DNA of 64,000 nucleotides, from positions 186,001 to 250,000 of the forward strand of contig CANRNJ010000002.1 in NCBI GenBank assembly GCA_947631955.1. The letters run 5' to 3'. A program made the translations under genes and the position numbers. The stretch is from an uncultured Lachnospiraceae bacterium. Its GTDB lineage: Bacteria; Bacillota; Clostridia; Lachnospirales; Lachnospiraceae. Positions within the stretch are counted from its first letter, which is position 1. Each line of letters begins with the position of its first letter. Of the stretch, positions 8,927 to 25,766 are shown in pieces. Below the pieces are notes generated by a model. It worked only from the letters and a program-made list of their open reading frames with translations, ran no database searches and was not told the origin of the DNA.

Positions 8927-11137
8927 CTACTTACTTGTCAGGTGCATCAGCCTTCCCTGAAAATCGCCCCATAACGGCGGAATATTGATGCCCGCATAGT
9001 GCAGCGTATCGCCTTTGTATTCGGTCTGACGGATCTCCGGCCATTCGTCAGCGTTCTCGATCACATATGTCCTGTCCGGATCCAGTCCCGGTATATGGAT
9101 ACGCCTGCTGTGATAATTGGGCCTGTTCAATACCTGAACATAAGTGACGAGCGCCTCGCTCTTATCCTTGGCCGCCACTACATAGCAATCATACAGCCCG
9201 TTGTCCGCATAATTCGCGATCCGGTAGTAATCCCCTCTCCTGATCAGATCGTTATATTTATGATACATGGCGATCTGCTCCGGGATCATGTCACGGTCCT
9301 CCTGCGGTATTTTGGTCACGTCCAGTTCATAGCCGAACGTTCCCGCAAGCGCCACATACCCTCTGGTCTTAAAAGGCGTCACCCTTCCGATGGCGTGATT
9401 CGGGCAGTCCGATACATGCGCGCCCATAACGGACAGCGGATACACCATCGCCGTGCCGGACTGAATGGAAAGCCGCTCTATCGCATCCGTGTCGTCGGAG
9501 CACCAGATCTGCGGACTGTAATACAGCATACCCGCATCAAATCTGGCGCCGCCGCCCGAACAGTTCTCCAGCAGCAGATGCGGAAATTCGCTTGTAAGCC
9601 TCTCCTGAAGTTCATAGACGGCGAGCACCTGCCGGTGGTACAGTTCGCCCTGTCTGTCCGCCGGAAGTCCGTAACTGCCCAGATCGCTCAGCTGTCTGTT
9701 CATGTCCCATTTGACATATTCGATATTGGCGCTCCGTAAGACGGAAGCGACCATTTCATATACATGGTCCCGCACTTCTTTTCTGGTCAGATCAAGCACA
9801 TACTGATTGCGGGCAAGGCTTCCCGTCCGGCCCGGTACGGCGATCGCCCAGTCGGGGTGCGCACGGTACAGATCGGAATCGGGCGAGATCATCTCCGGCT
9901 CGAACCAGATACCGAACTTCATTCCCAGTTTATTGACCTCATCCACCAGATGTTTAAGGCCGCCTTTCAGCTTGTTCTCATTGACCTTCCAGTCCCCCAG
10001 ACTCGTGTTATCATCGTTCCTGCACCCGAACCAGCCGTCGTCCATGACCAGCATCTCGATCCCCAGTGCAGAGGCCTGTCTGGCGATGCTCAACAGTTTA
10101 TCCGTATCGAAATCAAAATAGGTCGCTTCCCAGTTGTTGATCAGGATCGGCCGTTTCTTGTCCCGGTATTCGCCGCGGATCAGATGGCCGCGGTAAAGAT
10201 CATGAAAACACCTGCTCATGCCGCCGATGCCTTCCGACGAGTAGACGCAGATCACTTCCGGCGCCTGAAAAGAATCTCCCGGCTCCAGTTTCCAACAGAA
10301 ATTATAGGGATGGATCCCCATCATGGCGCGGATGCTGCCGAACTGGTTCTCCTCGATCTGCGCAAGGAAATTGCCGGAGTAGACAAAATTCATGGCATAG
10401 ATATCACCGCTCTCCTCTGTCGTCGATCTCTTCTTCCACGCCATAAACGGATGCTCCTGATGGCTGGACTCGCCGCGGGTTGAAGAAACGCCCTGTTTTC
10501 CCTTCATGATCGTTCTCGTCTGGACCGCGCGTTCCCTCGCCCACGAACCGTGCAGCGTGATCATCTCGTAATCTTCGTTATCCATATCGATGCACGCGGA
10601 CAGCGCCTTGGTCAGATAGATCGATCCCTCACCGTTATTGATGATCCTGACGCTCCTTGCGACAGCGTCATTGTCCGCAAAAATACTGTATGACAGAAGC
10701 ACCTGCAGTCCCAGCAGCTTATCCTCCAGCGTAAGCTCCAAGGTCATACATTCCTCTTCATTTCCGAACGTGGCGGGAAGCCCCTCCAGTTTTTCTTTGC
10801 CCCGATAGATCCTGTGCGACAAATATGACAGGCAGACGGCCGTGTGTCCGCCCTCCGTTCTGACCGTCAGAGCGCCTTCCCTGTAGTCGCCTATGTCATT
10901 GCCCGTGTACTCCGTCGGAAAAGCATCCCAAAAAGAAGTCCTGTCCCTGTTGTTCTTAGAGGGCACAAAAGGAGGTTCCTGCGTACGCATCAGGTATGCC
11001 AGATCGTCGTCCGCCAGTTTCCTTCCGTAATAGATATGTCCGACGAAATTCTCTTCATCCACGATGCCGATACAATAACTTGTATGCGCCGTGTCCAGTT
11101 TAAATACTCTGTTCCGTTCGTTGTAAGTGATATTCAT
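8927..11137 (-). CDS. Alpha-galactosidase, GH36
   Basis: Retaining glycosidase that removes terminal alpha-1,6-galactose from oligosaccharides such as raffinose and melibiose. The 736 residues fit the full-length GH36 architecture: N-terminal beta-supersandwich (to about 330), TIM barrel, and C-terminal beta domain. The nucleophile motif is YVKWDMNR and the acid/base motif is IWCSDDTDAIERL. There is no signal peptide, so it is cytoplasmic and acts on imported sugars. A single gene with its own promoter; no transporter is adjacent. The ATG at 11137 has an AAGGAGCAGG ribosome binding site. Confidence 0.93.
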   Translation of the reverse strand: MNITYNERNRVFKLDTAHTSYCIGIVDEENFVGHIYYGRKLADDDLAYLMRTQEPPFVPSKNNRDRTSFWDAFPTEYTGNDIGDYREGALTVRTEGGHTAVCLSYLSHRIYRGKEKLEGLPATFGNEEECMTLELTLEDKLLGLQVLLSYSIFADNDAVARSVRIINNGEGSIYLTKALSACIDMDNEDYEMITLHGSWARERAVQTRTIMKGKQGVSSTRGESSHQEHPFMAWKKRSTTEESGDIYAMNFVYSGNFLAQIEENQFGSIRAMMGIHPYNFCWKLEPGDSFQAPEVICVYSSEGIGGMSRCFHDLYRGHLIRGEYRDKKRPILINNWEATYFDFDTDKLLSIARQASALGIEMLVMDDGWFGCRNDDNTSLGDWKVNENKLKGGLKHLVDEVNKLGMKFGIWFEPEMISPDSDLYRAHPDWAIAVPGRTGSLARNQYVLDLTRKEVRDHVYEMVASVLRSANIEYVKWDMNRQLSDLGSYGLPADRQGELYHRQVLAVYELQERLTSEFPHLLLENCSGGGARFDAGMLYYSPQIWCSDDTDAIERLSIQSGTAMVYPLSVMGAHVSDCPNHAIGRVTPFKTRGYVALAGTFGYELDVTKIPQEDRDMIPEQIAMYHKYNDLIRRGDYYRIANYADNGLYDCYVVAAKDKSEALVTYVQVLNRPNYHSRRIHIPGLDPDRTYVIENADEWPEIRQTEYKGDTLHYAGINIPPLWGDFQGRLMHLTSK

Positions 11138-11214
11138 GTCCTGCTCCTTCGCAAAAAATATGCATGGCCGCGCCGCGCGGTGATCTGACAGCCAGACCGT
11201 TGACTTTTGACTCC

Positions 11215-11243
11215 ATTATAGCAATATCTGTCCGGAATGGGAA
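11215..11243 (-). promoter_or_regulatory. Extended -10 promoter of the alpha-galactosidase gene
   Basis: On the minus strand TGCTATAAT gives a perfect -10 (TATAAT, 11215-11220) with an extended TGN element. The -35 position (TTCCCA, 11238-11243) is poor, so it probably relies on the extended -10 or an activator. The leader is about 70 nt. Confidence 0.6.
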
Positions 11244-11276
11244 GAAAAATGTACGCGGTTCAGCGCAAGGTTATTA

Positions 11277-11304
11277 TTGAAAGATGATGGGATTGTGATA
11301 AAAT
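11277..11304 (+). promoter_or_regulatory. Promoter of the AEC transporter gene
   Basis: TTGAAA (11277-11282), 16 bp, TAAAAT (11299-11304), about 55 bp before the ATG at 11367. It is back-to-back with the alpha-galactosidase promoter. Confidence 0.6.
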
Positions 11305-11366
11305 AGAGAGAATGGAACGGCCGCCAAAGGCCGCCATGTGCGGATCCGCACGGAAACGGAGCATCC

Positions 11367-12329
11367 ATGAGTATTACAGTTGTATTACAGCAGATGATCA
11401 TGATCTTTTTACTGATCGGGACCGGAATGTTATTATATAAGAAACAGATCCTGACCGAACCGGCTTCCAGACAGATCTCCGGTATCATCGTCAACGTGAC
11501 CAATCCGGCGCTGCTGATCTGTTCCGCCCTGTCGGACGGCCCCAAGGCGTCGCTGGCGGATCTGGGAAAAGCTTTCTGCGCATATGCCGTCATATTTGCC
11601 CTGCTGATCGCGGTCGGCTTCCTGATCCCCCGCATCCTCCGCGTGCCGGTCCATGAGCATTATTCCTATCAGCTGCTGACCGTATTCGGCAATGTGGGAT
11701 TTATCGGGATCCCTCTTGCATCGGCCGTGCTGGGGACGGGATCGCTGATCTTTGTATCCATTTTCAATCTTATTTTTAATATACTGATCTATACGTTCGG
11801 CATTTCTCTTTTGTCGCACGCAAAAATGCGCCGGGCGGATCCTGCCGCCGACGCGTCCGGTCTTGAAAGATCTTCTGTCTGGGAGCGCTCCAGGAAACTG
11901 ATCAACGTCGGCACGATCTCCGCGGCTGCGACGATCATACTCTACTTAAGCGACGTCCAAGTGCCGAAGATCGTTTCTTCTACCCTCACTTATATGGGGC
12001 AGTCCACAACGTTTCTGTCCATGATCGTACTGGGTGTTTCCGTAGCGCAGATGTCCCCGAAAGACATCTTCACACACCCCAGACTGTACGGCTTTACCCT
12101 GCTTCGCCAGATACTGGTCCCCATCGGATTTATCCTGTTAGCGAGACCTTTTATCTCCAATACGCTGATATTGAACACGCTCGCCCTGATGCTGGCAGTT
12201 CCCGCGGCCAACATGCCGCTGATGCTCTCCAAACAGATGCAGATGGAAACCGACACGATCTCGCAGGGGATCATATTGACCACGATACTGAGCCTGCTGA
12301 CCATCCCCATTGTGAGTCTGGCGCTGTAG
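11367..12329 (+). CDS. AEC family transporter (auxin efflux carrier fold)
   Basis: Predicted ten-helix membrane permease of 320 residues. The N-terminus places hydrophobic helices around GTGMLLYKK and NPALLICSAL; a central polar loop lies at about 150-180, and a second set of helices ends with AVPAANMPLMLSKQMQ. Bacterial AEC proteins export or exchange organic acids such as malate, but the substrate cannot be read here. It is convergent with the Rrf2 gene, only 8 bp between stop codons, so the long minus-strand operon and this gene have little room for a terminator. Functional linkage to the sulfur operon is possible but unproven. Confidence 0.85.
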   Translation: MSITVVLQQMIMIFLLIGTGMLLYKKQILTEPASRQISGIIVNVTNPALLICSALSDGPKASLADLGKAFCAYAVIFALLIAVGFLIPRILRVPVHEHYSYQLLTVFGNVGFIGIPLASAVLGTGSLIFVSIFNLIFNILIYTFGISLLSHAKMRRADPAADASGLERSSVWERSRKLINVGTISAAATIILYLSDVQVPKIVSSTLTYMGQSTTFLSMIVLGVSVAQMSPKDIFTHPRLYGFTLLRQILVPIGFILLARPFISNTLILNTLALMLAVPAANMPLMLSKQMQMETDTISQGIILTTILSLLTIPIVSLAL

Positions 12330-12337
12330 CCTGTGTT

Positions 12338-12775
12338 TTATATCACATAATAATCCGTCTGCAGCTCCTCCTGCCATTCCTGCATATCCTGCAGGGTAAT
12401 GCTTTCCAATACTTCCTGCACGGCCTCGTCCAGCCTCTGCCACAGGATGTAGCTGACGCAGGCGCTCTTATTCTCGCACGGGATGCCGTTTACTCCGACG
12501 CAGTCCGTAGGCGACAGATCCCCTTCCACCGCCCTCAGGATCTTCCCAACCGTATATTTCTCCGGCCGGTCGGTAAGAACATATCCGCCGTGCGGTCCCC
12601 TGACGCTTTTTACCAGAGAAGCCTTATTCAATACGCCGATGATCTGCTCCAGATATTTTTCCGATATATTCTGTCTTTTGGCGATATCTCTGACGCTCAC
12701 CGGTTCTCCGTTATCGTAAGTCGCCAGATCCAGCATTATTTTGATGGCATATTTGCCTTTTGTAGATATTTTCAT
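12338..12775 (-). CDS. Rrf2 family regulator with NsrR-like cysteine triad
   Basis: A 145-residue winged-helix regulator. The N-terminus (MKISTKGKYAIKIMLDLA), the helix ISEKYLEQIIGVLNKASLVKS and the wing VRGPHGGYVL are typical of Rrf2. Cysteines at 92, 100 and 106 (C-X7-C-X5-C) match the spacing of [Fe-S]-binding NsrR-type members, unlike the cluster-free sulfur regulator CymR. It is the last gene of the nitrogenase-like/cysK operon, 13 bp after the ABC ATPase gene, so it probably controls that operon in response to Fe-S status, redox state or sulfur supply. That role is inferred from position. Confidence 0.9.
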   Translation of the reverse strand: MKISTKGKYAIKIMLDLATYDNGEPVSVRDIAKRQNISEKYLEQIIGVLNKASLVKSVRGPHGGYVLTDRPEKYTVGKILRAVEGDLSPTDCVGVNGIPCENKSACVSYILWQRLDEAVQEVLESITLQDMQEWQEELQTDYYVI

Positions 12776-12788
12776 TGATTCCCCTGTT

Positions 12789-13541
12789 TTAAATCACATA
12801 ATCAAAATCCTGAATAAACCTTGCCAGAAATTTTCGGGTCCTTTCCTCCCGCGGCTTTGTAAAAATCACGTCCGGCGGACCCTGCTCCACGATCACACCG
12901 CCGTCCATATAGATCACCTTTGTGGAAACGTCCCGCGCAAACGCCATTTCATGCGTTATGATAACCATCGTCGTACCTTCTTTGGCCAGAGCCTTGATGG
13001 TATCCAAGACCTCCCCGACCAGTTCCGGGTCCAGCGCGGACGTCGGTTCGTCGAAGAAAATGACATCCGGGTTGACGGCCACCGCTCTGGCAATACCGAT
13101 CCTCTGCTGCTGTCCGCCGGAAAGTTCGCACGGATAATAGTCCGCCCGATCCGACAGCCCTACTCTTTCCAACGCCGCGGCCGCGATTTTTTCCGCTTCT
13201 TTCTTGGACAGTCCATGCCCTGCCGTCAGACCCAGCGATATATTTTCCAAAGCCGTCTTATTTTCAAAAAGGTTATAATTCTGAAAAACAAACGCCGTCT
13301 TCTGCCTGATCTGACGCGCTGTTTTCTTGGAATGGACATGAAGATCCACGCTCAGATCTCCCAATTCCATATGACCGGAATCGGCCCTTTCAAAAAACTC
13401 CAGACATCTGAGCAGCGTTGTTTTGCCCGACCCGCTCGCGCCTAAAACGGCGACCACATCCCCTTTGTCCACTTCAAAGCTGACGCCCTTCAACACTTCA
13501 TTTGTTCCAAACGACTTTTTGACATTCTGTACTTTCAGCAC
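12789..13541 (-). CDS. Amino-acid ABC transporter ATP-binding protein
   Basis: A 250-residue polar amino-acid type ATPase of the GlnQ/TcyC/TcyN class. Walker A is GASGSGKTT (about residue 34), the signature is LSGGQQQR, and Walker B is [14 protein letters not shown], followed by the switch His in VIITHEM. It energises the two permeases encoded upstream in the same operon. It lies 43 bp after the second permease gene. Linkage to cysK and the Rrf2 gene suggests a sulfur-containing amino acid as cargo. Confidence 0.93.
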
Positions 13542-13584
13542 TTTCTTGTCCTCCCCGAATCTGTCGGTCTTTTTTTCTGTCTGG

Positions 13585-14301
13585 TTATGTAGAAGAATGA
13601 ACTCCCCTTCTGTACACGGACATTCTGTTTTCCAACAGATGCATCATTTTCTCCACAACCGCGATCACAACGATGTAAATGACGAATACGCATAGATAAG
13701 CCTCAAAATATCTGAGCACATCTCCGCCTAAGATCTTGGCTTCTCCGGTGATTTCCGTCACGGACATCATAAAGGCCAGCGATGTCGCCTTGATCAGATC
13801 GACTACGATATTTCCTATAACGGGCATTGCGGCGCAGATCACCTGCGGAAAGAGGATATGGATGAATACCGCCGATTCACTCATCCCCATCGACAGACCG
13901 GCCTCCCGCTGTCCCTGATGTACGCTCTGCATCCCGGCTCTGACCGCCTCCGCAACGGATACCGACGCCGTAAGCGACAGCGCGATGTATGCGTACCAGA
14001 CCGGATCGATATCGTATACGTTGATATCCAGTCCGGCTTTCTCGATAAAAGCAGCCGCCGCATACGGCGCCAGATTATAAATCACATAGATCTGAAGAAG
14101 CATCGGCGTCCCCCGGATCAGCGACATATAGATCCGGCACAGCGGGCTCAGCACTTTGATGCGCCTGTTGATTGCCAGCGCCATCAAAAGTCCCGCAGCG
14201 AACGCAACAGCAAACGCCACCACGGTCAGCTTAAGCGTGACCGGAAGAAATGCCGCGATCTTCGGAAGCGCGCTTACAATAAAAGAATAATCGATATTCA
14301 T
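13585..14301 (-). CDS. Amino-acid ABC transporter permease (2)
   Basis: A 238-residue polar amino-acid permease of the HisM/GlnP class with about five membrane segments. The EAA loop, [23 protein letters not shown], is well conserved and contacts the ATPase. It overlaps the preceding permease gene by 4 bp (ATGA), implying translational coupling. The two permeases differ in sequence, so the transporter is probably a heterodimer, as in the B. subtilis TcyLM system. Confidence 0.92.
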
Positions 14302-15026
14302 GCGACACCTCCCGATAACTTCCGCAGACTGCGGCGCGCTTTAGCCGGGTCCATTTTTTTCTCAAGGATATGAAATAACTTTTCTATGGCAAGCGAAACC
14401 GGCCAATAGATCAACGTAAGCGCAAGATACATATCCACGGCGTATACGTTGATGCTTCTCGCCGAGAGATAATAAGCCTGTCCCAACACATCCCTGAGCC
14501 CGATCGTGTATGCAAGCGCTCCCTCTTTCATGAGAAAGATGATCATGTTGCCGATGTTTGGGATCGCTCTTTTAACCATCTGCGGGAGCAGTATAAACCA
14601 AAAGGTCTGCAGTTCCGTCATTCCGACGGAAAGTCCCGCCTCGCGCTGCCCCGCCCGGAGCGACTCATACGCCGACCGGATCACTTCCGAGGAGGACGCC
14701 CCAATAAAAAGCGAAAACGTGATACAGACAAAAAATACCGGCGACATCCTGTTAAGAGCATCTCCCACCCGGCCTCCCAGCATGGCCGGCAGTCCGTAAT
14801 ATACCAAAAACAAAAGTACGATGGACGGCGTGCACCTGAGCACCGTAACATACAAAGATGCAATGGCGGCAAGTATTTTGATCCTGCTCTTCCGAAGACA
14901 TACGATGCCTGCTCCGATCATAAATCCTATTACGAGCGACACTGTCACATACAACAGTGTCACCCGCAGGTAAGGGAGGGATTCTATAAAAAAGTATTTT
15001 ACTTTTTCGACTTCGACCGTCCTCAT
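14298..15026 (-). CDS. Amino-acid ABC transporter permease (1)
   Basis: A 242-residue permease paired with the next gene. Membrane segments are evident from about residue 15, and the EAA-type loop reads [26 protein letters not shown]. It overlaps the solute-binding protein gene by 4 bp upstream and the second permease gene by 4 bp downstream. This tight coupling makes the four ABC genes one module inside the larger nitrogenase-like operon. Confidence 0.92.
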   Translation of the reverse strand: MRTVEVEKVKYFFIESLPYLRVTLLYVTVSLVIGFMIGAGIVCLRKSRIKILAAIASLYVTVLRCTPSIVLLFLVYYGLPAMLGGRVGDALNRMSPVFFVCITFSLFIGASSSEVIRSAYESLRAGQREAGLSVGMTELQTFWFILLPQMVKRAIPNIGNMIIFLMKEGALAYTIGLRDVLGQAYYLSARSINVYAVDMYLALTLIYWPVSLAIEKLFHILEKKMDPAKARRSLRKLSGGVA

Positions 15027-15880
15027 TCAAGTACCTCAAAAACATTGAATCCGTAAAATTCAACTGACAGTTCTTCCAGTGTGCCGTCATCTTTCAGGGT
15101 CTTCAAAGCGCCGCTGACCTTTTCCGTCAGATCGTCTTCTCCCTTGGCAATGATCGGATAGGTGTCTACCGGAATGGTCCTTTTGTAGGAAAGCGTATCG
15201 TTGAGCATATGCAGATCTCCATCCTCGGCGACTACCAGCGCGTCATAATAATTGCCGGGAAAGAAAGCAAAGTCATATCTTCCTTCCGCCACTAAACTCA
15301 GACAGTCCACAAAAACATTGGGATCGGAAGAATACGTAAGTTCAAATCCGGCATCCGGATGCTCCGCGATATACTGCTCCAGCTGATACGCCAATCCGTC
15401 GCCCGGCATGACCGGCGCAGGACTCATCTTGAGCTCGGAGGCCTGATCCAGCGTGGTAACGTCCGCCCTGTCTTTGGTCACTACGAGTCCGCAGGGCGAA
15501 GCGCCCATAGGATTCTCAGGTATATTGTAGTTTTCCGCCCGCTCCTCTGTATAAAAGGAGTTGGTGATCGCGATCTGGTATTTGCCTGTGGAAAGACCGG
15601 TAAACGCCGCGTCCTGTTCCGCCTCGTTAAATACAAACGTATACTCCGGAAGCAGTTCATCCACTTTTCTCATGACCTCGATCTCGTATCCGGTGCGGTT
15701 GCCTTCATCGTCCGTGTAAGCCAGCGGATAATTGTTGGGCGGCGCCACTACCTGAATCACGGCCGCGCCGTCATCGGCCTGCGACGAAGCGCTCTGCTGC
15801 GCATCCGTGCCGCATCCTGCAAGGATTCCTGTCAGGCTGCTTACAATCAATACTGTTGATATCACTTTATTCCATTTCAT
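15023..15880 (-). CDS. Amino-acid solute-binding lipoprotein (SBP family 3)
   Basis: Membrane-anchored substrate receptor of 285 residues. The signal peptide ends in a lipobox, ILAGC, near residue 22. The mature region has the family 3 pattern: PLAYTDDEGNRTGYEIEVMRKVDE, then AITNSFYTEERAENY. I chose ATG 15880, which has GAGGAG eight bases upstream, over an upstream TTG. It lies 45 bp after the nifX-like gene. Family 3 receptors bind polar amino acids. The context (cysK, Rrf2, nitrogenase-like reductase) suggests a thioether or disulfide amino acid such as cystine or S-methylcysteine; that specificity is inference. Confidence 0.9.
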   Translation of the reverse strand: MKWNKVISTVLIVSSLTGILAGCGTDAQQSASSQADDGAAVIQVVAPPNNYPLAYTDDEGNRTGYEIEVMRKVDELLPEYTFVFNEAEQDAAFTGLSTGKYQIAITNSFYTEERAENYNIPENPMGASPCGLVVTKDRADVTTLDQASELKMSPAPVMPGDGLAYQLEQYIAEHPDAGFELTYSSDPNVFVDCLSLVAEGRYDFAFFPGNYYDALVVAEDGDLHMLNDTLSYKRTIPVDTYPIIAKGEDDLTEKVSGALKTLKDDGTLEELSVEFYGFNVFEVLE

Positions 15881-15925
15881 AATTTTTCTCCTCTGCAAAG
15901 GCTGGCTGCCTTTGTCTTTACCGTT

Positions 15926-16306
15926 TTACTTGTCCCGATTTCTGTTGATATAATCATAAAGAACCGACAAAAGTTCACGGACTTCTCCCTCTTGCTCCAA
16001 TACTTCGATCCCGCTGCGGAGCAAGATCCTTGACGGAAACGGGCCGATCTTGACTACGAGCAAATATTGACAGTCCCGCAGGATCTGGCACACTTCCTGT
16101 AAAAACTCTTCGTTTCTGGCATGGCAGCCGCCCCCGCAGCCCTCATAACCGCTTGTATCTGGAAACGCACGCTGTCCTTCGATACGGAAATTGCCGCTGC
16201 CGTCTTCCAACACATAAACCGTCACGTTCTTTGCCGCTCCGAAATGCAGATCGCAATGGATCCCGTCGCTGGTAGCCACCGCTGCTTTCACTGTCTTATC
16301 GCTCAT
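15926..16306 (-). CDS. NifX/NifB C-terminal-like cofactor-binding protein
   Basis: A 126-residue stand-alone domain of the dinitrogenase iron-molybdenum cofactor-binding family. It shows the family features VAVATSDG, HFGAAKNVTVYVLED, a central Cys-rich loop with CGGGCH, and VVKIGPFPSRILLRSGIEV near the C-terminus. Such proteins carry cofactor precursors between NifB and the catalytic subunits. The neighbouring NifB-like protein lacks this domain, so the two may do separately what a fused NifB does. ATG 16306 has GGAGG about seven bases upstream; 16318 is an alternative. It lies 27 bp after the nifK-like gene. Confidence 0.85.
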   Translation of the reverse strand: MSDKTVKAAVATSDGIHCDLHFGAAKNVTVYVLEDGSGNFRIEGQRAFPDTSGYEGCGGGCHARNEEFLQEVCQILRDCQYLLVVKIGPFPSRILLRSGIEVLEQEGEVRELLSVLYDYINRNRDK

Positions 16307-16345
16307 CATATCCTCCATTCTTCATACAGACCCCGGCCCGGTGCG

Positions 16346-17713
16346 CTAAATGGCATCGTCCTCGCCATGGGTCGTATTGGTAATCATACCTTTGCGGAAC
16401 AATCCGGTATAAATGTCTTCGATCAGGGTAAGGGCGCCGGCATAACCGATATAGGTCTTTGACAGCACCACCTGATCCGTGATCGGGATTCCGTAGTATA
16501 CCAGAATACTGTTGGTCTGTTCCGCCAATTCCTTATCCCAGCTGCTGCCCAATATCAGGGATTTGTTTTTTCTCTCCGCTATTTTTTCTGCGATGTCCGC
16601 TCTGATCAACGCGTTATCTCCTTCTACGACCAGAGTTTGCGCCAGTCCTTCTCCTGCCGCGGACAACGCCTGTTCCACAAGCTGTTTTGCCGAAGCGTCC
16701 GGTTCGTCGAACTCATAAAATGAAACCACGTTCATTCCCAGTTCTTTCGTCAGAAAATCCGCCGCGCCCACACCGTATTCCGCGTCCGATACGATATAGG
16801 CATCATAGGGCAGATAGCTTGCAAAATCGGAGAAAAGATCTCCCAGCGAAACAAAATATTTCTTGTACCGCGCTTCCTCTTGCGCTATAAAATCTTCCAC
16901 AGCCGCTTCGTCCATATGAAGCGCCGCGGCAACTCTTCTCAAAAAAGCGCTCGTTGCCTTCAGCCCGATGGGAAGGACCGGTTCGTGGATATAAGGCGTC
17001 TGATATTTTTTCTCACACAGTTTCGCCGCATCAAGCCCGACCCACGGGGACAGTACGATATTCAGCTCCGCATTGGGAATATCCTGCCATTCCGAAACGC
17101 CGCCGCTTTCATAGCCAAACAAAACGTTTACTTCCAGTCCAAGTCCGGTCAGCAGACGTTTGATCTCATGCAGATCGCCCCGCCATCTGGGATTTTGGTA
17201 CGGTATCACGGAAAAAACGTTGACCAGTCCTTTCCTGACTTCCGGCTCGCGGTCACCTACATACTGGTCGATAAGCGCCTCTATCACCAATTCATGCCCG
17301 ACATAGTTATTGCCGCGGAAACCCGCCGTGTCCACTCCGATTACCGGCTTGCCCTCCGCCGCATGGTTCCTGGCGGTCTGTTTGACATCGTCGCCCACGA
17401 TTCCGGCGGTACATCCCGCAAGGACTACATACAGATCGGCATCCATCACCTGAAGCGCAGCGTCTATCAGCTGCCCAAGCTTCTTCTCTCCGCCGAACAC
17501 CACCTCGTTCTGGGAAGAATTCGTGCAGGGGATCTGGCCGCCTCCGGTATAGCCCTCGCCCTGATATCCGGAACCCGGACCCATATATGCAAACTGTCTT
17601 GAGGAACATCCCGGACCGGCATGGATAACAGGCACGGCTCTCTCGATACCCAGTACGGTCTGTTGTGCGCCCAGCGCACAAGTATATTTTGCTTCCTGTA
17701 CAATACGGCCCAT
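16346..17713 (-). CDS. Nitrogenase-like component 1, beta (NifK-like) subunit
   Basis: A 455-residue nitrogenase component 1 protein. Three cysteines match the P-cluster ligands of NifK: Cys12 (KYTCALGA), Cys36 (VIHAGPGC) and Cys101 (VLAGCTAGIVGDDV). It lacks the long N-terminal extension of true NifK. It lies 22 bp after the nifD-like gene, and together they should form an alpha2beta2 reductase fed by NifH. NifEN scaffolds share this fold, but there is no second D/K pair in the window, so this pair is more likely catalytic. It is inferred to act on a sulfur compound rather than N2. Confidence 0.88.
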   Translation of the reverse strand: MGRIVQEAKYTCALGAQQTVLGIERAVPVIHAGPGCSSRQFAYMGPGSGYQGEGYTGGGQIPCTNSSQNEVVFGGEKKLGQLIDAALQVMDADLYVVLAGCTAGIVGDDVKQTARNHAAEGKPVIGVDTAGFRGNNYVGHELVIEALIDQYVGDREPEVRKGLVNVFSVIPYQNPRWRGDLHEIKRLLTGLGLEVNVLFGYESGGVSEWQDIPNAELNIVLSPWVGLDAAKLCEKKYQTPYIHEPVLPIGLKATSAFLRRVAAALHMDEAAVEDFIAQEEARYKKYFVSLGDLFSDFASYLPYDAYIVSDAEYGVGAADFLTKELGMNVVSFYEFDEPDASAKQLVEQALSAAGEGLAQTLVVEGDNALIRADIAEKIAERKNKSLILGSSWDKELAEQTNSILVYYGIPITDQVVLSKTYIGYAGALTLIEDIYTGLFRKGMITNTTHGEDDAI

Positions 17714-17735
17714 TGTCTATCTCTCCTATCCTTTT

Positions 17736-19184
17736 CTATATATATTCCTCTTCCTGCTCCATCCACCAGTCGGTATAGGGAAAGGTGTTGTATTCTTTCA
17801 GGGTGGACAGGATTCCTTTTGCTTTCAGCAGATCCCTTATTCTTCTGCCCATGAGCAGCAATCCGTCATACCCTGCGCTGATGTTGATCTCCCCCTCCAA
17901 CAGGCAGGGGATTCCCAGTTTGCCGCCGAGTATCGTCATATTCATATGCCGCACGATCATAAAGTCCGGGGAAGTCCGCCTGATCAGTTTGATCACTTCA
18001 TAGGGCTGTTTGTTGCAGACGGTAAAATTCTCCACATCGCCCGCCACGCGGATCATCTCGTTCAGCGTACTTTTTTTCACATCTTTACCGTCTGTCCGCA
18101 TGTCATGGTGAAGCGTGGTGATCCCGCAGATCTCCATTCCCAGATCGGTCACAAGGCTCGCCATGTTGTGCGCGTAAGAATCGCCCGCATAGATGTATAC
18201 CTTTTTCCCGGAAAGGTCTTTTTTCAATTCTTCCAGCTCCGGCCGGATCCGCTCATGTTCGTCACGAATCAGCTGCTCTGCCATTTCGGATCTTCCGGTA
18301 ACTCTCGCCACTTCCCTATACCACTGATCGGTCCAATCGATCCCATACGGCGCCGGCGCATGGATCTTGGGCACACCGTACTCTTTTTCCAGCACATCCA
18401 CAATATAGGTGCCCAAGGTTTCGCATATCTGCGTGCTGCATGCCGCTTCGCTCATCCTTGCTATCGTATCGATATCTGCCAGCGGAACAAGATAATTCGG
18501 TCTTAAGCCAAGTTTCTTAAGTATCGGCGTAAAAGTATCCGAACCCAGAAAGTTAAAGATATTGACCAGATCCTCCTGCTTTTTCTCCGGTTTTCTGACT
18601 ACCTTGCGCAGCAGTCCATGGTATGCCGCATCAAACCCTGACGACCATATCTTGGATTTGAATCCCTCGCAGAACACCGGGATGATGGGTATTCCCAGTT
18701 CCTGCGCCATCTCGTCCGCCAGACTTTCGATATCGTCGCCCACGATACCGGCCGCGCAGGAAGACTGAATAAAGACAGCCGAAGGATGAAATCTCTCCTG
18801 CGCGGTTTCAATCGCTTCTCTTAGTTTTTTCAGTCCGCCGTATATGGTTTCTTTTTCCGATATATTGCCGCATATGATCTGCGCCTTGAAGGCTTCGACT
18901 CCTCTCCCCGCGGCAGAATTTTTGATCTGCTCATGGATCTGGGGAGTGTTGGCAAAACACCCCATGGGCGAGTGTACCACGACCGCCGCACCCCTTACGT
19001 TATAGCAGACGGTCGCGGCGCACCCCTGCGCACAGTCGCTGCACTGGCTGAAACACCGGTCTTTATCGGGTTTTTTCAGCTGCTCCGAATATTCCTGCAA
19101 TTCGCTGGCTTTTCCCTGAAAGGAAATGATAGACTTAAGCCTTCTATCTCTTATCTCTACTTCCGCATTGGCTATTCCGCTCAT
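17736..19184 (-). CDS. Nitrogenase-like component 1, alpha (NifD-like) subunit
   Basis: A 482-residue component 1 protein. P-cluster-type cysteines are Cys60, Cys76 (VVHSPMGC) and Cys143 (IQSSCAAGIVGDDI). Cys254 (ICETLGTYI, upstream of EKEYGVP) aligns with the FeMo-cofactor cysteine of NifD (Cys275). The region equivalent to NifD His442 reads LLEGEINISAGYDG and has no histidine, so the cofactor environment differs. An extra cysteine group at 44, 48, 51 and 55 precedes the P-cluster set. It lies 23 bp after nifH. The pattern suits a nitrogenase-like reductase using a NifB-derived cluster without homocitrate. Confidence 0.88.
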   Translation of the reverse strand: MSGIANAEVEIRDRRLKSIISFQGKASELQEYSEQLKKPDKDRCFSQCSDCAQGCAATVCYNVRGAAVVVHSPMGCFANTPQIHEQIKNSAAGRGVEAFKAQIICGNISEKETIYGGLKKLREAIETAQERFHPSAVFIQSSCAAGIVGDDIESLADEMAQELGIPIIPVFCEGFKSKIWSSGFDAAYHGLLRKVVRKPEKKQEDLVNIFNFLGSDTFTPILKKLGLRPNYLVPLADIDTIARMSEAACSTQICETLGTYIVDVLEKEYGVPKIHAPAPYGIDWTDQWYREVARVTGRSEMAEQLIRDEHERIRPELEELKKDLSGKKVYIYAGDSYAHNMASLVTDLGMEICGITTLHHDMRTDGKDVKKSTLNEMIRVAGDVENFTVCNKQPYEVIKLIRRTSPDFMIVRHMNMTILGGKLGIPCLLEGEINISAGYDGLLLMGRRIRDLLKAKGILSTLKEYNTFPYTDWWMEQEEEYI

Positions 19185-19207
19185 ATTCCGATCTTCTCCT
19201 TTATCCG

Positions 19208-20975
<1,768 letters not shown>

Positions 20976-20995
20976 GCAGCACCTTCTTTCGACAT

Positions 20996-21049
20996 AAAAA
21001 AACGGAGGTATGCCGATCATGATCCGTCATGCGATCGACAAAACCTCCG
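20996..21049 (-). terminator. Terminator or attenuator between DUF2292 and the nifB-like gene
   Basis: On the minus strand CGGAGGT pairs with ACCTCCG, with inner pairs CGATC/GATCG and ATGA/TCAT, followed directly by seven T (20996-21002). Only about 20 bp remain before the nifB-like start codon, which leaves no room for a promoter after it. It should therefore reduce or regulate read-through from the cysK promoter into the nitrogenase-like genes. Confidence 0.75.
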
Positions 21050-21065
21050 GTTTTTCCAGTCAGTT

Positions 21066-21218
21066 TTAGAATCTATGCTTTTCCGTTTTATCTATTTGGA
21101 TGATTTTCCCGTCCTGGACAATGAGCGTGACATTGCCGTATTTCATACCCCGCAGCATCTCCTCGATCTTATCGATCTGGGAAGGATCCAAAACATGCTC
21201 CCTTTCGGTATCTTTCAT
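21066..21218 (-). CDS. DUF2292 (YezD-like) small protein
   Basis: A 50-residue protein with the DUF2292 pattern: a helical N-terminus (SQIDKIEEMLRGMKYGNVTL) followed by a short strand (IVQDGKIIQIDKTEK). B. subtilis YezD belongs to this family, whose members are often encoded near sulfur assimilation genes; function unknown. The ATG at 21218 has a GGAGGCGG ribosome binding site. It lies 40 bp after cysK and before the attenuator hairpin, so it is expressed with cysK. Confidence 0.8.
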   Translation of the reverse strand: MKDTEREHVLDPSQIDKIEEMLRGMKYGNVTLIVQDGKIIQIDKTEKHRF

Positions 21219-21258
21219 GCACACCGCCTCCAAACCTGACTATTGCACAGCGTGCCGT

Positions 21259-22197
21259 CTAGTTGTTGTTAAACAGCGGCGTGGACAGATATCTGTCGCC
21301 GGAATCGGGAAGCAGCGCAACGATCGTTTTTCCCTTATTCTCCGGTCTGCCCGCCAGAATGACAGCCGCCTTAAGAGCCGCGCCGGAGGAGATGCCGACC
21401 AGTATTCCCTCGCTCACCGCAAATGCCTTTCCTTCCGCAAACGCATCGTCATTCTCGATGGGGATGATCTCGTCATAGATCTTGGTGTTGAGGACTTCCG
21501 GGACGAATCCTGCGCCGATTCCCTGAATCTTATGGGCTCCCGGCGTTCCCGTCGAAAGCACGGGGCTTCCCGCAGGTTCCACCGCAACGACCTTGATATC
21601 CGGATTCTTCTCTTTCAGATATTCTCCGACGCCTGTGATCGTACCGCCCGTTCCTACGCCTGCGACAAAAATATCCACCTTGCCGTCCGTCTGTTCCCAG
21701 ATCTCCGGTCCCGTCGTCGCCTTATGGACCGCCGGGTTCGCCGGATTGACAAACTGCCCTAAGATCACGGAGCCTTCTATCTCCTCTTTCAGTTCATCGG
21801 CCTTGGCAATGGCGCCCTTCATACCTTTTGCTCCCTCGGTAAGCACCAGTTCCGCGCCGTATGCTTTCAGCAGATTTCTTCTCTCAACGCTCATCGTATC
21901 GGGAAGGGTAAGGATCGCCCGATATCCCTTGGCCGCTGCCACCGCCGCAAGACCGATCCCGGTATTGCCGCTTGTAGGCTCGATGATCGTTGCTCCCGGT
22001 TTCAGGATCCCCTTCTTTTCCGCATCTTCGATCATCGCCAGTGCGATACGGTCTTTTACCGATCCGGCCGGATTCAGATACTCCAGTTTTGCAAGAATGG
22101 TCGCATCCGTAACGCCCGCTTTCTTGGCATAAGAATTCAGCTTCAGTATGGGAGTGTTCCCAATCAGTTCCAGTGCGCTTTCTTTAATCTGACTCAT
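21259..22197 (-). CDS. cysK: Cysteine synthase (O-acetylserine sulfhydrylase)
   Basis: PLP enzyme that makes cysteine from O-acetylserine and sulfide, 312 residues. The PLP lysine is Lys48 in NPAGSVKDR, the substrate loop is PTSGNTGIG, the phosphate cup is [10 protein letters not shown], and the C-terminal SSG motif is GISSGAAL. It is first in the operon with its own strong promoter, and the nitrogenase-like genes follow on the same strand. This suggests the reductase liberates sulfide or a thiol that CysK fixes. The ATG at 22197 has an AGGAGG ribosome binding site. Confidence 0.96.
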
Positions 22198-22264
22198 AAT
22201 GTTTTCCTCCTCTTTTTCATTTCATACTATTTCTATAGGGTTTATATGTTATTTGTTATATTGG

Positions 22265-22293
22265 ATTATATGACGGATAAATCATCTTGTCAA
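22265..22293 (-). promoter_or_regulatory. Consensus sigma-A promoter of the cysK/nitrogenase-like operon
   Basis: TTGACA (22288-22293), exactly 17 bp, TATAAT (22265-22270): a full consensus match on the minus strand, so control is probably by repression. A short dyad, CTAT-TTCT-ATAG (22227-22238), lies about 30 bp past the -10 in the leader and is a candidate site for the operon-encoded Rrf2 protein. The site assignment is weak. Confidence 0.85.
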
Positions 22294-22371
22294 TACATTT
22301 TTTACAAAAGAAAAATATCCGCCGCAAAGCAAAAGGGAAAGGCCGAAGATAAAAGAAAAACGCCGCAGCAT

Positions 22372-22412
22372 AAAACGAGTCCCCAGTGGTGGAAGCACCG
22401 GGGACCCGTTTT
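22372..22412. terminator. Bidirectional terminator between amt and the cysK promoter
   Basis: GAGTCCCC(AG)TG pairs with CACCGGGGACCC, with A-runs and T-runs on both sides. It ends the amt-glnB transcript on the minus strand. The 22198-22470 gap otherwise holds only the cysK promoter and leader. Confidence 0.85.
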
Positions 22413-22470
22413 ATATATACAAACTAAGGGATATAGGTATACGCTTATTTCATTGATTTCTTTGATACAA

Positions 22471-24270
22471 TTATTCCACATCCTGCAATGCGGCAAAGTC
22501 TTCCTCGCCCGTGCGGACTTTAACGACCTTGTCAACATTGTATACGAAAATCTTGCCGTCGCCGATATGACCGGTGTACAGCGCTTTCTTGGCAGCCGTG
22601 ATCACATCCTCTACAGGGATCTTGCTGACAACGACTTCCACTTTAACCTTCGGAAGCAGCGTAGCATCTACCTCGACACCACGATATCTCTCTCCGGCTC
22701 CCTTCTGGATGCCGCAGCCCATGACCTGCGTCACCGTCATGCCGGTTACGCCGAGATCGTTCATGGCTTTACGCAGCTGATCGTATCTGGACAGTTTCGC
22801 AATGATGGAAACTTTATACATACCCGTAGCGGATACCATAGGCGCCTGTGCGACCTTGACCGCCGCATTTCTCTGTGCTTCGGAAGCCTGATCGTAATCC
22901 GTTGCATCCAAGCTTGTGTTTTCGTTGACTTCCATCATCATCGTATTGGAGATATCCATGATGCTGAAGCCTGAGTATGCGGATGCCAGACCGTGTTCGC
23001 GTGCATCCAGACCGATGATCTCCTCTTCTTCGGTGACACGCAGGCCGACCAACGCTTTAATCACAAGGAACGTGATGGTAATGGTCACAGTCGTCCAGAG
23101 GATCGTCGCGCCCATGCCCAGAAACTGGAGTCCAAGCTGTTTGAATCCGCCGCCGTAGAACAGGCCCTCGCCTGCGATCTGGTTAGCGCCGAAAGTCACG
23201 CCGTCGCCGTAGCCTCTTGCGAAAGCGGGCGCCGTATCAGTTGCAAACAGACCAACTGCAAGAGTACCCCAGATACCGTTTAAACAGTGAACCGCTACCG
23301 CGCCCACCGGGTCGTCGATATGCAGCACATTATCCAAAAACCATACGCCGAACACTACCAGAAGACCTGCTACCGCGCCGATCACGATCGCGCCGAAAGC
23401 GTCGCACACATCGCAGGGAGCCGTGATCGCTACCAGACCTGCCAGTGATGCGTTCAGACACATGGACACATCGGGCTTGCCGTATCTTACCCAAGTAAAA
23501 ATCATGCACACCACTGTCGCCACCGCGGGAGCAATGGTCGTGGTAACAAAGATGGAACCCATCTCCGCAACGGACGTTGCCGCTGCGCCGTTGAATCCGT
23601 ACCAGCCGAGCCACAGGATGAACACACCCAGACAGCCGATCGGAAGGTTATGTCCGGGGAACGCATTTACTTTCGTAACTTTACCGGACTTATCTTTAAC
23701 GAACTTACCGATACGGGGACCTAAGATCGCCGCGCCAACCAGAGCGCTGATGCCGCCTACCATATGGATACAGTTGGAACCTGCAAAATCATGGAAGCCC
23801 ATCTGTGCAAGGAAGCCGCCGCCCCATGTCCAGTGCGCTTCGATCGGATAGATCACCGCCGAGATCACACCGGAGTAGATACAATAGGATAAAAACTTGG
23901 TCCTCTCAGCCATTGCTCCGGATACGATCGTCGCCGTCGTCGCACAGAACACAAGGTTGAATACGAAGTTGGACCAGTCAAAATCCGCATAATTGGTAAA
24001 AATGTCAAATCCGGGTCTGCCGATGAAACCCATCATATCCTCGCCGAGCAACAGTCCAAAACCGATCAGGATGAATACCACTGTACCGATACAGAAGTCC
24101 ATCAGGTTTTTCATCAGGATGTTACCCGCATTTTTCGCTCTGGTGAATCCGGTTTCGACCATGGCAAAACCTGCCTGCATCCAGAACACCAGCGCCGCGC
24201 CGATCAGGAACCAGACGCCCCACAGTTCGCCGCTCACACCGCTTACGGCATTCATAATCTCCTCTGTCAT
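22471..24270 (-). CDS. Ammonium transporter fused to a PII (GlnB/GlnK) domain
   Basis: A 599-residue fusion. Residues 1-430 are an Amt/MEP channel with about eleven membrane helices, including the family motif HMVGGISALVGA. After a linker, residues 484-599 form a complete PII protein: MYKVSIIAKLSRYDQLRKAM, the T-loop GAGERYRGVE with its tyrosine, and the B-loop TGHIGDGKIFV. PII normally plugs Amt according to 2-oxoglutarate and ADP/ATP; here sensor and channel are one chain, as seen in some Clostridia. It is next to, but divergent in role from, the nitrogenase-like operon and is separated from it by a terminator. Confidence 0.95.
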   Translation of the reverse strand: MTEEIMNAVSGVSGELWGVWFLIGAALVFWMQAGFAMVETGFTRAKNAGNILMKNLMDFCIGTVVFILIGFGLLLGEDMMGFIGRPGFDIFTNYADFDWSNFVFNLVFCATTATIVSGAMAERTKFLSYCIYSGVISAVIYPIEAHWTWGGGFLAQMGFHDFAGSNCIHMVGGISALVGAAILGPRIGKFVKDKSGKVTKVNAFPGHNLPIGCLGVFILWLGWYGFNGAAATSVAEMGSIFVTTTIAPAVATVVCMIFTWVRYGKPDVSMCLNASLAGLVAITAPCDVCDAFGAIVIGAVAGLLVVFGVWFLDNVLHIDDPVGAVAVHCLNGIWGTLAVGLFATDTAPAFARGYGDGVTFGANQIAGEGLFYGGGFKQLGLQFLGMGATILWTTVTITITFLVIKALVGLRVTEEEEIIGLDAREHGLASAYSGFSIMDISNTMMMEVNENTSLDATDYDQASEAQRNAAVKVAQAPMVSATGMYKVSIIAKLSRYDQLRKAMNDLGVTGMTVTQVMGCGIQKGAGERYRGVEVDATLLPKVKVEVVVSKIPVEDVITAAKKALYTGHIGDGKIFVYNVDKVVKVRTGEEDFAALQDVE

Positions 24271-24353
24271 AACATTTCCTCCTCACATAAAAAATACGGA
24301 TACAATGCGCCTGCGTCAAAGCCCCATTGCTCCGTACCTTTTATAATATATTC

Positions 24354-24396
24354 CGAGAACAAAAAAAGATGCCGCGAATGAATCACAGCATCTTTG
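24354..24396 (-). terminator. Terminator after the DUF4190 gene
   Basis: On the minus strand AAAGATGC pairs with GCATCTTT followed by a T-run. It lies between the DUF4190 gene and amt, so amt must have its own promoter in the remaining AT-rich stretch. Confidence 0.75.
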
Positions 24397-24517
24397 CTCT
24401 CTTTCTGAAAGCGATTCTATCACCGTCAGAGTCGGATGTCAATATCTTTTTTCAAAATAACAGATAAAAATCTGTCGTACTCCGCGGGCGATGTTCCGCC
24501 GGGCGGGCTCCATACCG

Positions 24518-25138
24518 CTACGCCATCAAAACGGCAATAAAAAGGATCGTAAACAAAAAGCCCACGATATTTAAGATAATACCGGCTATGGCCATGCCTT
24601 TATTCGGATTGTCCTGCGCGTTATTAACGGCGCCCAACACCACTCCCACGATCGCAAGGATCAGGGTGACGAATGACCAAAAACCGATAATGCATATGAT
24701 ACCGCATACCAGACTCCCTACTGCAAGTCCGCCCGTCTTCTGCGGCGCGGCATTGGATACCATGATAGGGCCGCCATAATTATTCGGCGAATAGCTGTTG
24801 TAACCGCCGTTTCCGTTGGCATAACCGTTCGGATTGGGCTGATTCATGTTGGGATTCGGCCAGCCCTGCGGATTCATATTCGGATTCTGCCAATTCTGTG
24901 GATTCCCATTCGGGTTCTGCCAGCCCTGTGGATTCCCATTCGGGCCCTGCCAATTCTGCTGCTCCGGCCGATTCCCATAAGGATCCTGCCAACCCTGCGG
25001 GTTCTGCTGATCCGGCCGGTTCATATAAGGATTCTGCCAACCCTGCGGGTTCGCGCCCGGATCCTGCTGTGCGTTATAGTTCTGCGGATTCTGTCCGAAA
25101 TCCTGCGGGTTCTGATTCTGTCCGTAATTGCCGTCCAT
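24518..25138 (-). CDS. DUF4190 membrane protein with Asn/Gln/Pro/Trp repeats
   Basis: A 206-residue protein of unknown function. Residues 1-115 are a low-complexity region of repeats such as NPQGWQNPN and NRPEQQN. The C-terminal 80 residues hold two membrane helices in the DUF4190 pattern (GLAVGSLVCGIICIIGFWSF and the ending GMAIAGIILNIVGFLFTILF). The repeat tail should lie on one side of the membrane and may be a protein-binding region. It lies 46 bp after another two-helix protein gene on the same strand. The ATG at 25138 has a GGAGGAAAAG site. Confidence 0.8.
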   Translation of the reverse strand: MDGNYGQNQNPQDFGQNPQNYNAQQDPGANPQGWQNPYMNRPDQQNPQGWQDPYGNRPEQQNWQGPNGNPQGWQNPNGNPQNWQNPNMNPQGWPNPNMNQPNPNGYANGNGGYNSYSPNNYGGPIMVSNAAPQKTGGLAVGSLVCGIICIIGFWSFVTLILAIVGVVLGAVNNAQDNPNKGMAIAGIILNIVGFLFTILFIAVLMA

Positions 25139-25184
25139 CTTTTCCTCCGTTCATAAAAATCAGGCTGTCTGCCGACGCCGCTTA

Positions 25185-25661
25185 CTAGAGCAGCAAAAGC
25201 TGCAGTCCGAAGAACAACAGAATGATCACAAGGAAAATAACAAACATCGTAATGACCTTGCCCGTCTTCTTCTGTAAAGCCGCCGAGATATAAACCGTGC
25301 TGAACGCCACACCGATGGCCGCGCAGAGCAGTCCGCCGAAAAACCAGCCGCCGATGATGCTTAAACCTACCAATACCCATATCCATGCCGGAACGGAAGC
25401 AACCGGTTCATAAGGGGTCCCGTCGTCATTATAGGTACCGTTTACCACCAGTCTTGCCTTGCCGCCTATCATGACGATATGGCAGTTTGCACCGGGAAAA
25501 TCTACCGAATAATCGATTACATTTACAAGCCAGTTACTGGATTTTACCCTGTACAGATTGCCGTCCACCGTGATCTGCGGACCGCCAAAAGTTTTGATCT
25601 GAATACCGAGTTGATGGGTCATGCCATTGCTGTCCGTGATCGTCCAATTGTTCCCTTTCAT
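25185..25661 (-). CDS. Hypothetical membrane protein
   Basis: I do not recognise this 158-residue protein. Residues 1-85 look like a small soluble beta-rich domain (for example TVDGNLYRVKSSNWLVNV and IVMIGGKARLVVNG). Two hydrophobic helices follow, at about 90-122 (WIWVLVGLSIIGGWFFGG) and 138-158 (VITMFVIFLVIILLF), and the chain ends immediately after the second. It probably forms a unit with the downstream DUF4190 gene, which has the same two-helix end. The ATG at 25661 has a GGAGACAAAAG site. Confidence 0.7.
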   Translation of the reverse strand: MKGNNWTITDSNGMTHQLGIQIKTFGGPQITVDGNLYRVKSSNWLVNVIDYSVDFPGANCHIVMIGGKARLVVNGTYNDDGTPYEPVASVPAWIWVLVGLSIIGGWFFGGLLCAAIGVAFSTVYISAALQKKTGKVITMFVIFLVIILLFFGLQLLLL

Positions 25662-25766
25662 TCTTTTGTCTCCTTTTCCCTCATAAGTTAATAGTAAAGT
25701 GTGCCTGAAATCTTACACATATAAAATGATATCATCGTTTGGCCGAAAAAACAATAGACAAGTGTT

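Follow-up and report, generated by a model that had tools for sequence, protein, structure and literature searches.

What could a nitrogenase-like enzyme be doing in an operon that opens with a cysteine synthase gene? The question is raised by a series of genes on the minus strand at positions 12338-22293 of a 64,000-nucleotide stretch of contig CANRNJ010000002.1 (positions 186,001 to 250,000; assembly GCA_947631955.1) from an uncultured Lachnospiraceae bacterium. We refer to this whole stretch as the window and give all coordinates within it; the genome to which it belongs is 3.11 Mb long and 96% complete. The series encodes CysK, a DUF2292 protein, a NifB-like radical S-adenosylmethionine (SAM) protein, NifH, two nitrogenase-like subunits (D and K), a NifX-like protein, a four-gene ATP-binding cassette (ABC) importer and an Rrf2-family regulator. 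The first-pass annotation, made from the sequence alone, had proposed a sulfur-scavenging reductase here, an idea that our analysis largely supports, though it does not prove it. The operon probably encodes a C-S bond reductase of the nitrogenase superfamily that scavenges sulfur, works in the manner of methylthio-alkane reductase (Mar) and belongs to a clade of its own.

The D and K subunits (17736..19184 and 16346..17713, minus strand as are all genes given below; both PF00148) are closest to Mar. In phmmer searches against solved structures the Mar of Rhodospirillum rubrum came first for both subunits, with 430 bits for D (next structure, 133) and 400 bits for K (next, 86). Identity to R. 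rubrum MarD and MarK is 43% each across 482 and 441 aligned columns, whereas D shares 23-28% with two NifD and two NifE references and K shares 22-23% with NifK. An AlphaFold2 model of D (pLDDT 84.7, pTM 0.85) has its best fold match in 9fmg_A (TM 0.91, 2.2 A); nitrogenases among the 50 listed structure matches reach a query-normalised TM of at most 0.73. Scores of D and K against the nifD, vnfD, anfD and nifE models are far below the cut-offs. The view of the first-pass annotation that D and K are not a nitrogenase is therefore upheld, with MarDK nearest by sequence and, for D, MarD nearest by predicted fold.

In order to place the system among its relatives we scanned genome_contigs (one genome per species, 84,980 species) and kept the best 80 of at least 568 relatives as loci. 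Genes in these loci were called by picking open reading frames (ORFs) and labelling them with blastp, and D or K candidates with fewer than 250 aligned residues were excluded from the alignments. Both D trees, a quick one of 105 rows and a careful one of 49 of those rows, show three clades. One contains R. rubrum MarD; this Mar set of 14 consists of 13 loci rows and the reference, and excludes a long-branched second copy adjoining in L094. The second, Nfa-like clade includes Endomicrobium sequences and the Heliophilum D that adjoins NifH, which we take as NflDK1 from the available text of PMC9147875. The third, which we call the gut clade, comprises 54 sampled D genes with that of the window included. 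It occurs mainly in Spirochaetota and Bacillota, which supply 26 and 23 of its 51 related loci, with one each from Actinomycetota and Planctomycetota. Support in the careful tree is 100/98 for the gut clade (22 rows), 97/99 for the Nfa-like clade and 91/95 for Mar. The approximately unbiased (AU) test rejected a placement of the window within Mar (p 1.9e-50) and a grouping of its nine-member subclade with Mar (p 5.7e-6). In the K tree, the 54 gut-clade and 13 Mar proteins form separate groups, and the Nfa-like K are not one clade.

In the numbering of MarD, as given in the accessible part of PMC12552129, the window D retains the P-cluster cysteines C66, C91 and C158, the cofactor ligands C270 and H429, and also R428, W195, F199 and H375. 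With the equivalents of C32, C56 and C121 in K, six of six P-cluster cysteines are present. The gut clade as a whole keeps these residues: C91, C158, C270, R428, H429, W195, F199 and H375 are found in 54 of 54 D proteins and C66 in 53 (one gap), and the P-cluster cysteines of K are present in 54 of 54. The same ligand residues are also present in the Nfa-like clade and are thus not diagnostic of Mar. The pocket tells a different story. Of the MarD residues C73, Q74 and H194, each of which all 14 Mar proteins keep (the reference among them), the window D has none, with T (Thr58), V (Val59) and I in their place. Cys73 is kept in none of the 53 ungapped gut-clade sequences, in 14/14 Mar and in 15/15 Nfa-like proteins, and His194 in 0/54, 14/14 and 0/15, respectively. 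Judged by these residues, the chemistry seems to be retained and the pocket remodelled in the gut clade. Retained ligands together with a changed pocket suggest, therefore, that the substrate is probably something other than methylthio-alkanes.

The remaining nif-type genes fit an enzyme that would carry an [Fe8S9C] cluster. The NifB-like protein (20103..20975; the ORF reaches to 21020, 20975 being the likelier start) is a putative synthase of this L-cluster. Its match to TIGR01290 scores 264 bits, below the cut-off of 344, and covers only profile positions 9-277 of 441. The NifB motifs noted in the first-pass annotation are present in it, as all six of the NifB sequence motifs that we looked for were found. 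The NifH-like ATP-dependent reductase (19208..20050; the ORF reaches to 20110, 20050 being the likelier start) scores 465 bits against TIGR01287 (cut-off 394) and is the sole high-scoring PF00142 match in the genome (435 bits, with four more at 23-41 bits); NifH is above the nifH cut-off in 27 of 28 gut-clade genomes. A NifX-like cluster-carrier protein (15926..16318; PF02579, 42 bits) follows K. A search of the genome for PF00148 returned two genes only, the D and K of the window. Because these are one D and one K, the genome has no NifEN, whose presence elsewhere, along with nifV and growth on N2, the first-pass annotation had named as evidence against its own reading, and without NifEN there is no route of the usual type to the iron-molybdenum cofactor (FeMoco). 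The gene complement of an [Fe8S9C] L-cluster enzyme is thus present, and formation of the cluster itself is presumed from sequence. In the window's own subclade, all eight loci (L033-L040) keep NifB, H, D, K, the NifX-like protein, the solute-binding protein and at least one permease together, so that the grouping of these genes is not due to chance.

The importer genes consist of a type-3 solute-binding lipoprotein (SBP; 15023..15898, PF00497, with a TTG start and a possible ATG at 15880), a permease of cystine type (14298..15026; NF011680, 134 bits, below the cut-off of 300), a second permease (13585..14301; PF00528) and a TcyN-like ATPase (12789..13541; NF008428, 314 bits, below the cut-off of 406). 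An SBP, two permeases and an ATPase also make up the cystine/glutathione importers, which we take to be GshT-TcyBC and TcyJKLMN; unlike these, the importer of the window is linked to a reductase. The complete four-gene importer is found in 7 of the 8 loci of the subclade. Across the gut clade, an ABC importer is encoded at most six genes away and in the same directon for 49/54 D genes (48/53 loci rows plus the window, entered by hand), compared with 3/13 in Mar and 10/15 in the Nfa-like clade. A list of importers made by homology gave 49/53, 3/13 and 10/15, respectively, and 51/186 for background genes. We classified importers by single-linkage clusters, with Pfam and NCBIfam scans of representatives only; on this basis the nearest importer in the gut clade is of the amino-acid type in 29 cases (window included) and TauT/SsuA-like in 20, and many Treponema members adjoin the latter type. 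Across the 49 labelled rows of the D tree the importer switches type 6 times, versus at least 11 times in 300 shuffles, a difference that near-copies help to produce. The nearness of importers, along with the AU tests, bears out the earlier claim that the operon is distinct from the described mar genes.

The link to sulfur is most direct in the operon itself, where cysteine synthase A (cysK; 21259..22197; TIGR01139, 448 bits, cut-off 351) is the first gene and the only cysKM match over the cut-off in the genome. The genome also encodes CysE and an O-acetylhomoserine sulfhydrylase-type (MetY-type) enzyme, both above cut-off, and because of the latter the capture of methanethiol elsewhere is possible. 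Within the subclade, cysK occurs in 6 of the 8 loci, a PatB C-S lyase with a cystathionine-type pyridoxal phosphate (PLP) enzyme in 6, and one or the other in all 8; in the window genome the PatB/PLP pair lies about 47 kb from the operon. The sulfite reductase domain (PF01077) was not found in the window genome by a search whose control was positive in 11/14, and it is present in 5/32 other gut-clade genomes as opposed to 16/18 comparison genomes (50 tested out of 60 related genomes chosen), counts in which Pectinatus, carrying both kinds of D, stands among the comparison genomes and in which draft genomes may miss the gene. As most gut-clade genomes do not have sulfite reductase, a reaction that releases sulfite would be of little use to them. 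This argues against sulfonates as substrates even where the importer is TauT-like, and fits the release of sulfide or a thiol.

The SBP offers some indication of what is imported. Its nearest solved structures, by sequence and by fold, are GshT, which binds glutathione, and then YtmK and a putative L-cystine binder (SBP model pLDDT 86.1; TM to the nearest folds 0.56-0.59). Arg120 is invariant across 20 SBPs and would hold a carboxylate. In such proteins an Asp usually holds the amino group of the ligand; by eye, this position is Pro in the window and in 8/8 loci of the subclade, which sets the SBP apart from the cystine and glutathione binders. Gamma-glutamyl transpeptidase was not found in the window genome (control positive in 8/14), and glutathione is therefore weakened as the imported source of sulfur. 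Our preferred candidate, and the least secure part of the proposal, is a thioether or thiol that bears a carboxylate and in which the amino group is missing, modified or bound in another way. In six related loci (L041, L042, L045, L046, L048 and L070) a fused Fe-S serine-dehydratase-like protein (SDH_alpha) is encoded at most two genes after K, and it perhaps marks a different substrate.

These parts suggest the following mechanism. The importer would take up a small organosulfur compound. The NifB-like protein would make the [Fe8S9C] L-cluster, which the NifX-like protein could carry to D-K, and NifH would feed electrons through the P-cluster in an ATP-dependent manner. The DK pocket, unlike that of MarD, would then reductively cleave the imported compound. 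Sulfur would leave as sulfide, or as a thiol to be processed by the PatB C-S lyase/cystathionine-type pair encoded elsewhere in the genome, and CysK would fix the released sulfur into cysteine. We infer the identity of the cofactor, the C-S chemistry, the substrate class, the sulfide product and a control that responds to sulfur or to Fe-S status.

Several observations weigh against this reading. Because the usual Asp of the SBP is replaced by Pro, a plain amino acid is doubtful as the ligand. Sulfur enzymes are less constant outside the subclade: any of cysK, CysMet, PatB or SDH_alpha is present in 30/51 fetched loci of the gut clade and at most six genes away in 23/53 rows. In the subclade cysteine-synthesis genes go with the cluster throughout (8/8), in support of the first-pass reading; over the gut clade the association is looser. 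Sulfur enzymes are also found in 5/13 Mar loci (4/13 within six genes) and in 8/15 Nfa-like loci (7/15 within six genes), and because of this a sulfur-gene neighborhood alone does not single out the gut clade. All of these counts come from loci chosen by similarity to the window, so that near-copies inflate them. CysK could serve only to supply cysteine for the clusters, import of cystine or glutathione could run alongside the reductase with no connection to it, and an ammonium transporter is encoded directly upstream, as nitrogen fixation might predict.

The second-to-last of these points leads to the strongest rival, which we consider unlikely but well worth weighing: the substrate of the reductase is made inside the cell, and the importer simply serves the uptake of cystine or glutathione, controlled by the same regulator. 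GshT, YtmK and the putative L-cystine binder are the nearest structures of the SBP, the CysK of the operon requires only sulfide, and Rrf2 regulators such as CymR respond to cysteine, according to the available text of PMC5015018. On the other hand, importer type tracks the D clade, and in 21/48 labelled loci rows D has importer genes to either side. The missing transpeptidase and the missing amino-group Asp of the SBP also speak against it.

An unusual nitrogenase seems improbable. It would resemble group IV-A (NfaDK) and fix N2 with an L-cluster and without NifEN, as claimed for Endomicrobium proavitum. In that species 15N2 incorporation and a functional nitrogenase are reported (accessible parts of PMC9147875 and PMC11257099), and the portion of PMC9147875 available to us reports no NifEN. 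In the careful D tree it is the Nfa-like clade rather than Mar that lies closer to the gut clade, if with weak support (86/79), and the ligands are the same. Among the 15 Nfa-like rows NifB is near in 6, a NifX-like gene in 6 and cysK in 4, with a methionine-type (NlpA) importer nearest in 7. Since 8/15 Nfa-like loci carry sulfur enzymes, sulfur neighbors alone are no argument against N2 fixation. The ammonium transporter with its C-terminal P-II domain (AmtB-PII fusion; 22471-24270, minus strand) has its own 11/12 promoter; a terminator scan found no minus-strand terminator-like site between it and the cysK operon. However, the Amt protein has no match in any of the 80 related loci, and we rejected it as a member of the system. 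Moreover, the supported Nfa-like and gut clades (97/99 and 100/98) separate in the D tree, which on the side of D speaks against membership of group IV-A/NfaDK, and Cys73 is a further difference between them; in the K tree the Nfa-like proteins do not group together. Although the window shares with Mo nitrogenase (NifHDK/NifEN) the fold, the P-cluster cysteines, an Fe protein and the NifB motifs, Gln191 and His195 of NifD are replaced by Trp and Phe (likewise in Nfa-like rows), the loop of the His ligand differs and identity is only 22-28%. The presence of only two PF00148 genes rules out a true nitrogenase with NifEN and also counts against the unusual kind. The missing sulfite reductase and the sulfur partners in the subclade fit sulfur supply better than nitrogen fixation.

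It is also quite improbable that the operon encodes a true Mar acting on volatile methyl thioethers such as dimethyl sulfide or 2-methylthioethanol, passing methanethiol to MetY and releasing hydrocarbons. The likeness to MarBHDK (group IV-C; PDB 9fmg, 9d9u) includes the B-H-D-K gene set, the identity of D and K, the P-cluster and [Fe8S9C] ligands, the Arg428-His429 loop and a radical SAM partner with NifB motifs, and the O-acetylhomoserine sulfhydrylase-type enzyme that this route calls for is encoded in the genome. MarB itself is called unlike NifB outside the radical SAM motif in the accessible text of PMC11423573, while in that of PMC12552129 all NifB motifs are found in it. Mar has been found to contain about 32 Fe per tetramer and to give a g 1.91 EPR signal. 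Yet the residues that are invariant in Mar (C73, Q74 and H194) are replaced, and these changes, the AU tests and the groupings of D and K all reject membership of Mar. The window operon adds a NifX-like gene, cysK and an amino-acid-type importer; a dedicated importer seems needless for volatile thioethers, in keeping with its rarity in Mar rows.

A sulfonate reductase of the isethionate type (Isr), releasing sulfite, is highly improbable. IsrBHDK of Rhodobacter capsulatus has the same B-H-D-K order, a nearby ABC importer and a role in sulfur assimilation (available text of PMC11423573), and the TauT/SsuA-like importers beside many Treponema members might suit it. According to the same text, however, IsrD has one of the three P-cluster cysteines and neither FeMoco ligand, and IsrB is closest to BciD, whereas the window keeps all three cysteines, Cys270 and His429 and encodes a protein with NifB motifs. 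We excluded Isr on these published residues, the D tree having contained no Isr sequence, and the genome does not have the sulfite reductase domain that its product would call for. Dark-operative protochlorophyllide reductase (DPOR), chlorophyllide reductase (COR) and CfbD can be dismissed, with BchN/BchB/BchZ/CfbD scores of 18-115 bits against cut-offs of 268-912.

The proposed sulfur-scavenging reductase leads to a broader, more tentative view of the gut clade. Possibly these systems are used as cartridges: several DK pairs, each coupled to a separate importer of amino-acid or taurine type, would be supplied by a single NifH/NifB factory and would reductively strip sulfur from different imported dietary organosulfur compounds for cysteine in gut bacteria mostly without sulfite reductase. 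A single NifH is accompanied by four or six PF00148 genes in 8/28 genomes, among them the complete genome of Treponema ruminis (six PF00148 genes, one NifH), while in the subclade of the window 6/7 of the genomes tested combine one NifH with exactly two PF00148 genes. Samples from rumen, omasum or reticulum are named in 9/51 locus titles of the gut clade, and further isolate codes (such as RUG and RUI) presumably belong to rumen or termite-gut series. If the cartridge view is true, sulfide and small hydrocarbons, including methane, could arise in the rumen, and perhaps in termite guts, with no part played by methanogens. If the sulfur role is right, nitrogenase-type chemistry would be a route of sulfur acquisition for many rumen-type bacteria without sulfite reductase, and nifH/nifD matches in gut surveys would often not indicate N2 fixation. 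The identity of the importer would provide a handle for finding the substrates of a branch of the nitrogenase superfamily. A changed pocket with kept ligands would be a natural experiment in the tuning of the [Fe8S9C] cluster by its protein scaffold, which the accessible part of PMC12552129 poses as a question.

Mar, Isr and their C-S chemistry have already been published. The available text of PMC10418091 describes methyltransferase clusters that contain, or lie close to, MarHDK-like IV-A genes, methionine transporters and cysK, and that of PMC13067680 reports one termite-gut spirochete in which a cysteine synthase is encoded close to nif genes of group IV. In our search of the literature near this system, no description of a clade of this kind, combining importers with a changed pocket, came up. 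Within the family of the window, 39/397 genomes (that of the window included) have a D at E <=1e-60, the others with 29-64% identity. Only one other genome reaches that level of identity (64%), and two genomes of the same genus have no D; the distribution of the operon within the family is patchy.

The layout of the operon agrees with what the first-pass annotation described: all ORFs were confirmed on the minus strand with their families identified by profile searches, the intergenic gaps are short or overlapping, and a sigma-70-like promoter (TTGACA-17-TATAAT, 12/12 consensus matches; 22265..22293, minus strand) lies 5' of cysK. Between the gene for the 50-amino-acid DUF2292 protein (21066..21218; PF10055, 68 bits) and nifB there is a terminator-like hairpin with a U-run (20994..21060), as stable as which none of 200 shuffles was (z -4.43). 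This possible attenuator may attenuate the nif part and so separate the expression of cysK from that of nif. A search for a perfect stem with a T-run in the 300 bases 5' of nifB found one in 1/8 nearest relatives (L035). An Rfam scan of 11000-26000 found no known RNA, with one sub-threshold match to the SMAD5-AS1 lncRNA model. The last gene encodes the Rrf2-family regulator (12338..12775; PF02082), with three cysteines (C92, C100 and C106); IscR and CymR models score level at 136 bits, each sub-cut-off.

In four relatives the palindrome TTCCTAT-N7-ATAGGAA is found at cysK or nifB promoters: in L034 (two copies at 1351-1430, no mismatch), L035 (463, 1 mismatch), L037 (3015 and 11373, at the cysK and nifB promoters, 2 mismatches each) and L038 (2314, 3 mismatches). 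Of the six spacing-7 sites with at most 2 mismatches, 5 are at cysK/nifB promoters and 1 is within a K gene. The window holds a degenerate form only (4 mismatches, by eye), and a general scan (all spacings, at most 3 mismatches) gave 93 matches versus 61 in shuffles. The palindrome of the relatives is plausibly a candidate operator of the Rrf2 regulator, although the signal stayed weak.

Elsewhere in the window's own genome (L129; C8:94000-102000), a second amino-acid-type ABC importer, recognized by eye, is found beside a CysK-like protein (280 bits, sub-cut-off) and what by eye is a LanC-like protein. Two Treponema-type metagenome-assembled genomes contain a deep-branching D/K pair of about 28% identity (L054, 12510-13985; L071, 3693-5168) immediately after the genes of an amino-acid-type importer, with a MatE transporter encoded next; this pair may represent a further uncharted branch. 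One gut-clade system is carried on a plasmid, the 382-kb pTS2 of Treponema saccharophilum (L115, 329265-360695), where two nitrogenase component 1 pairs are found with cysK, radical SAM, NifH, NifX-like and ABC importer genes and a type I-C CRISPR locus lies about 5 kb away.

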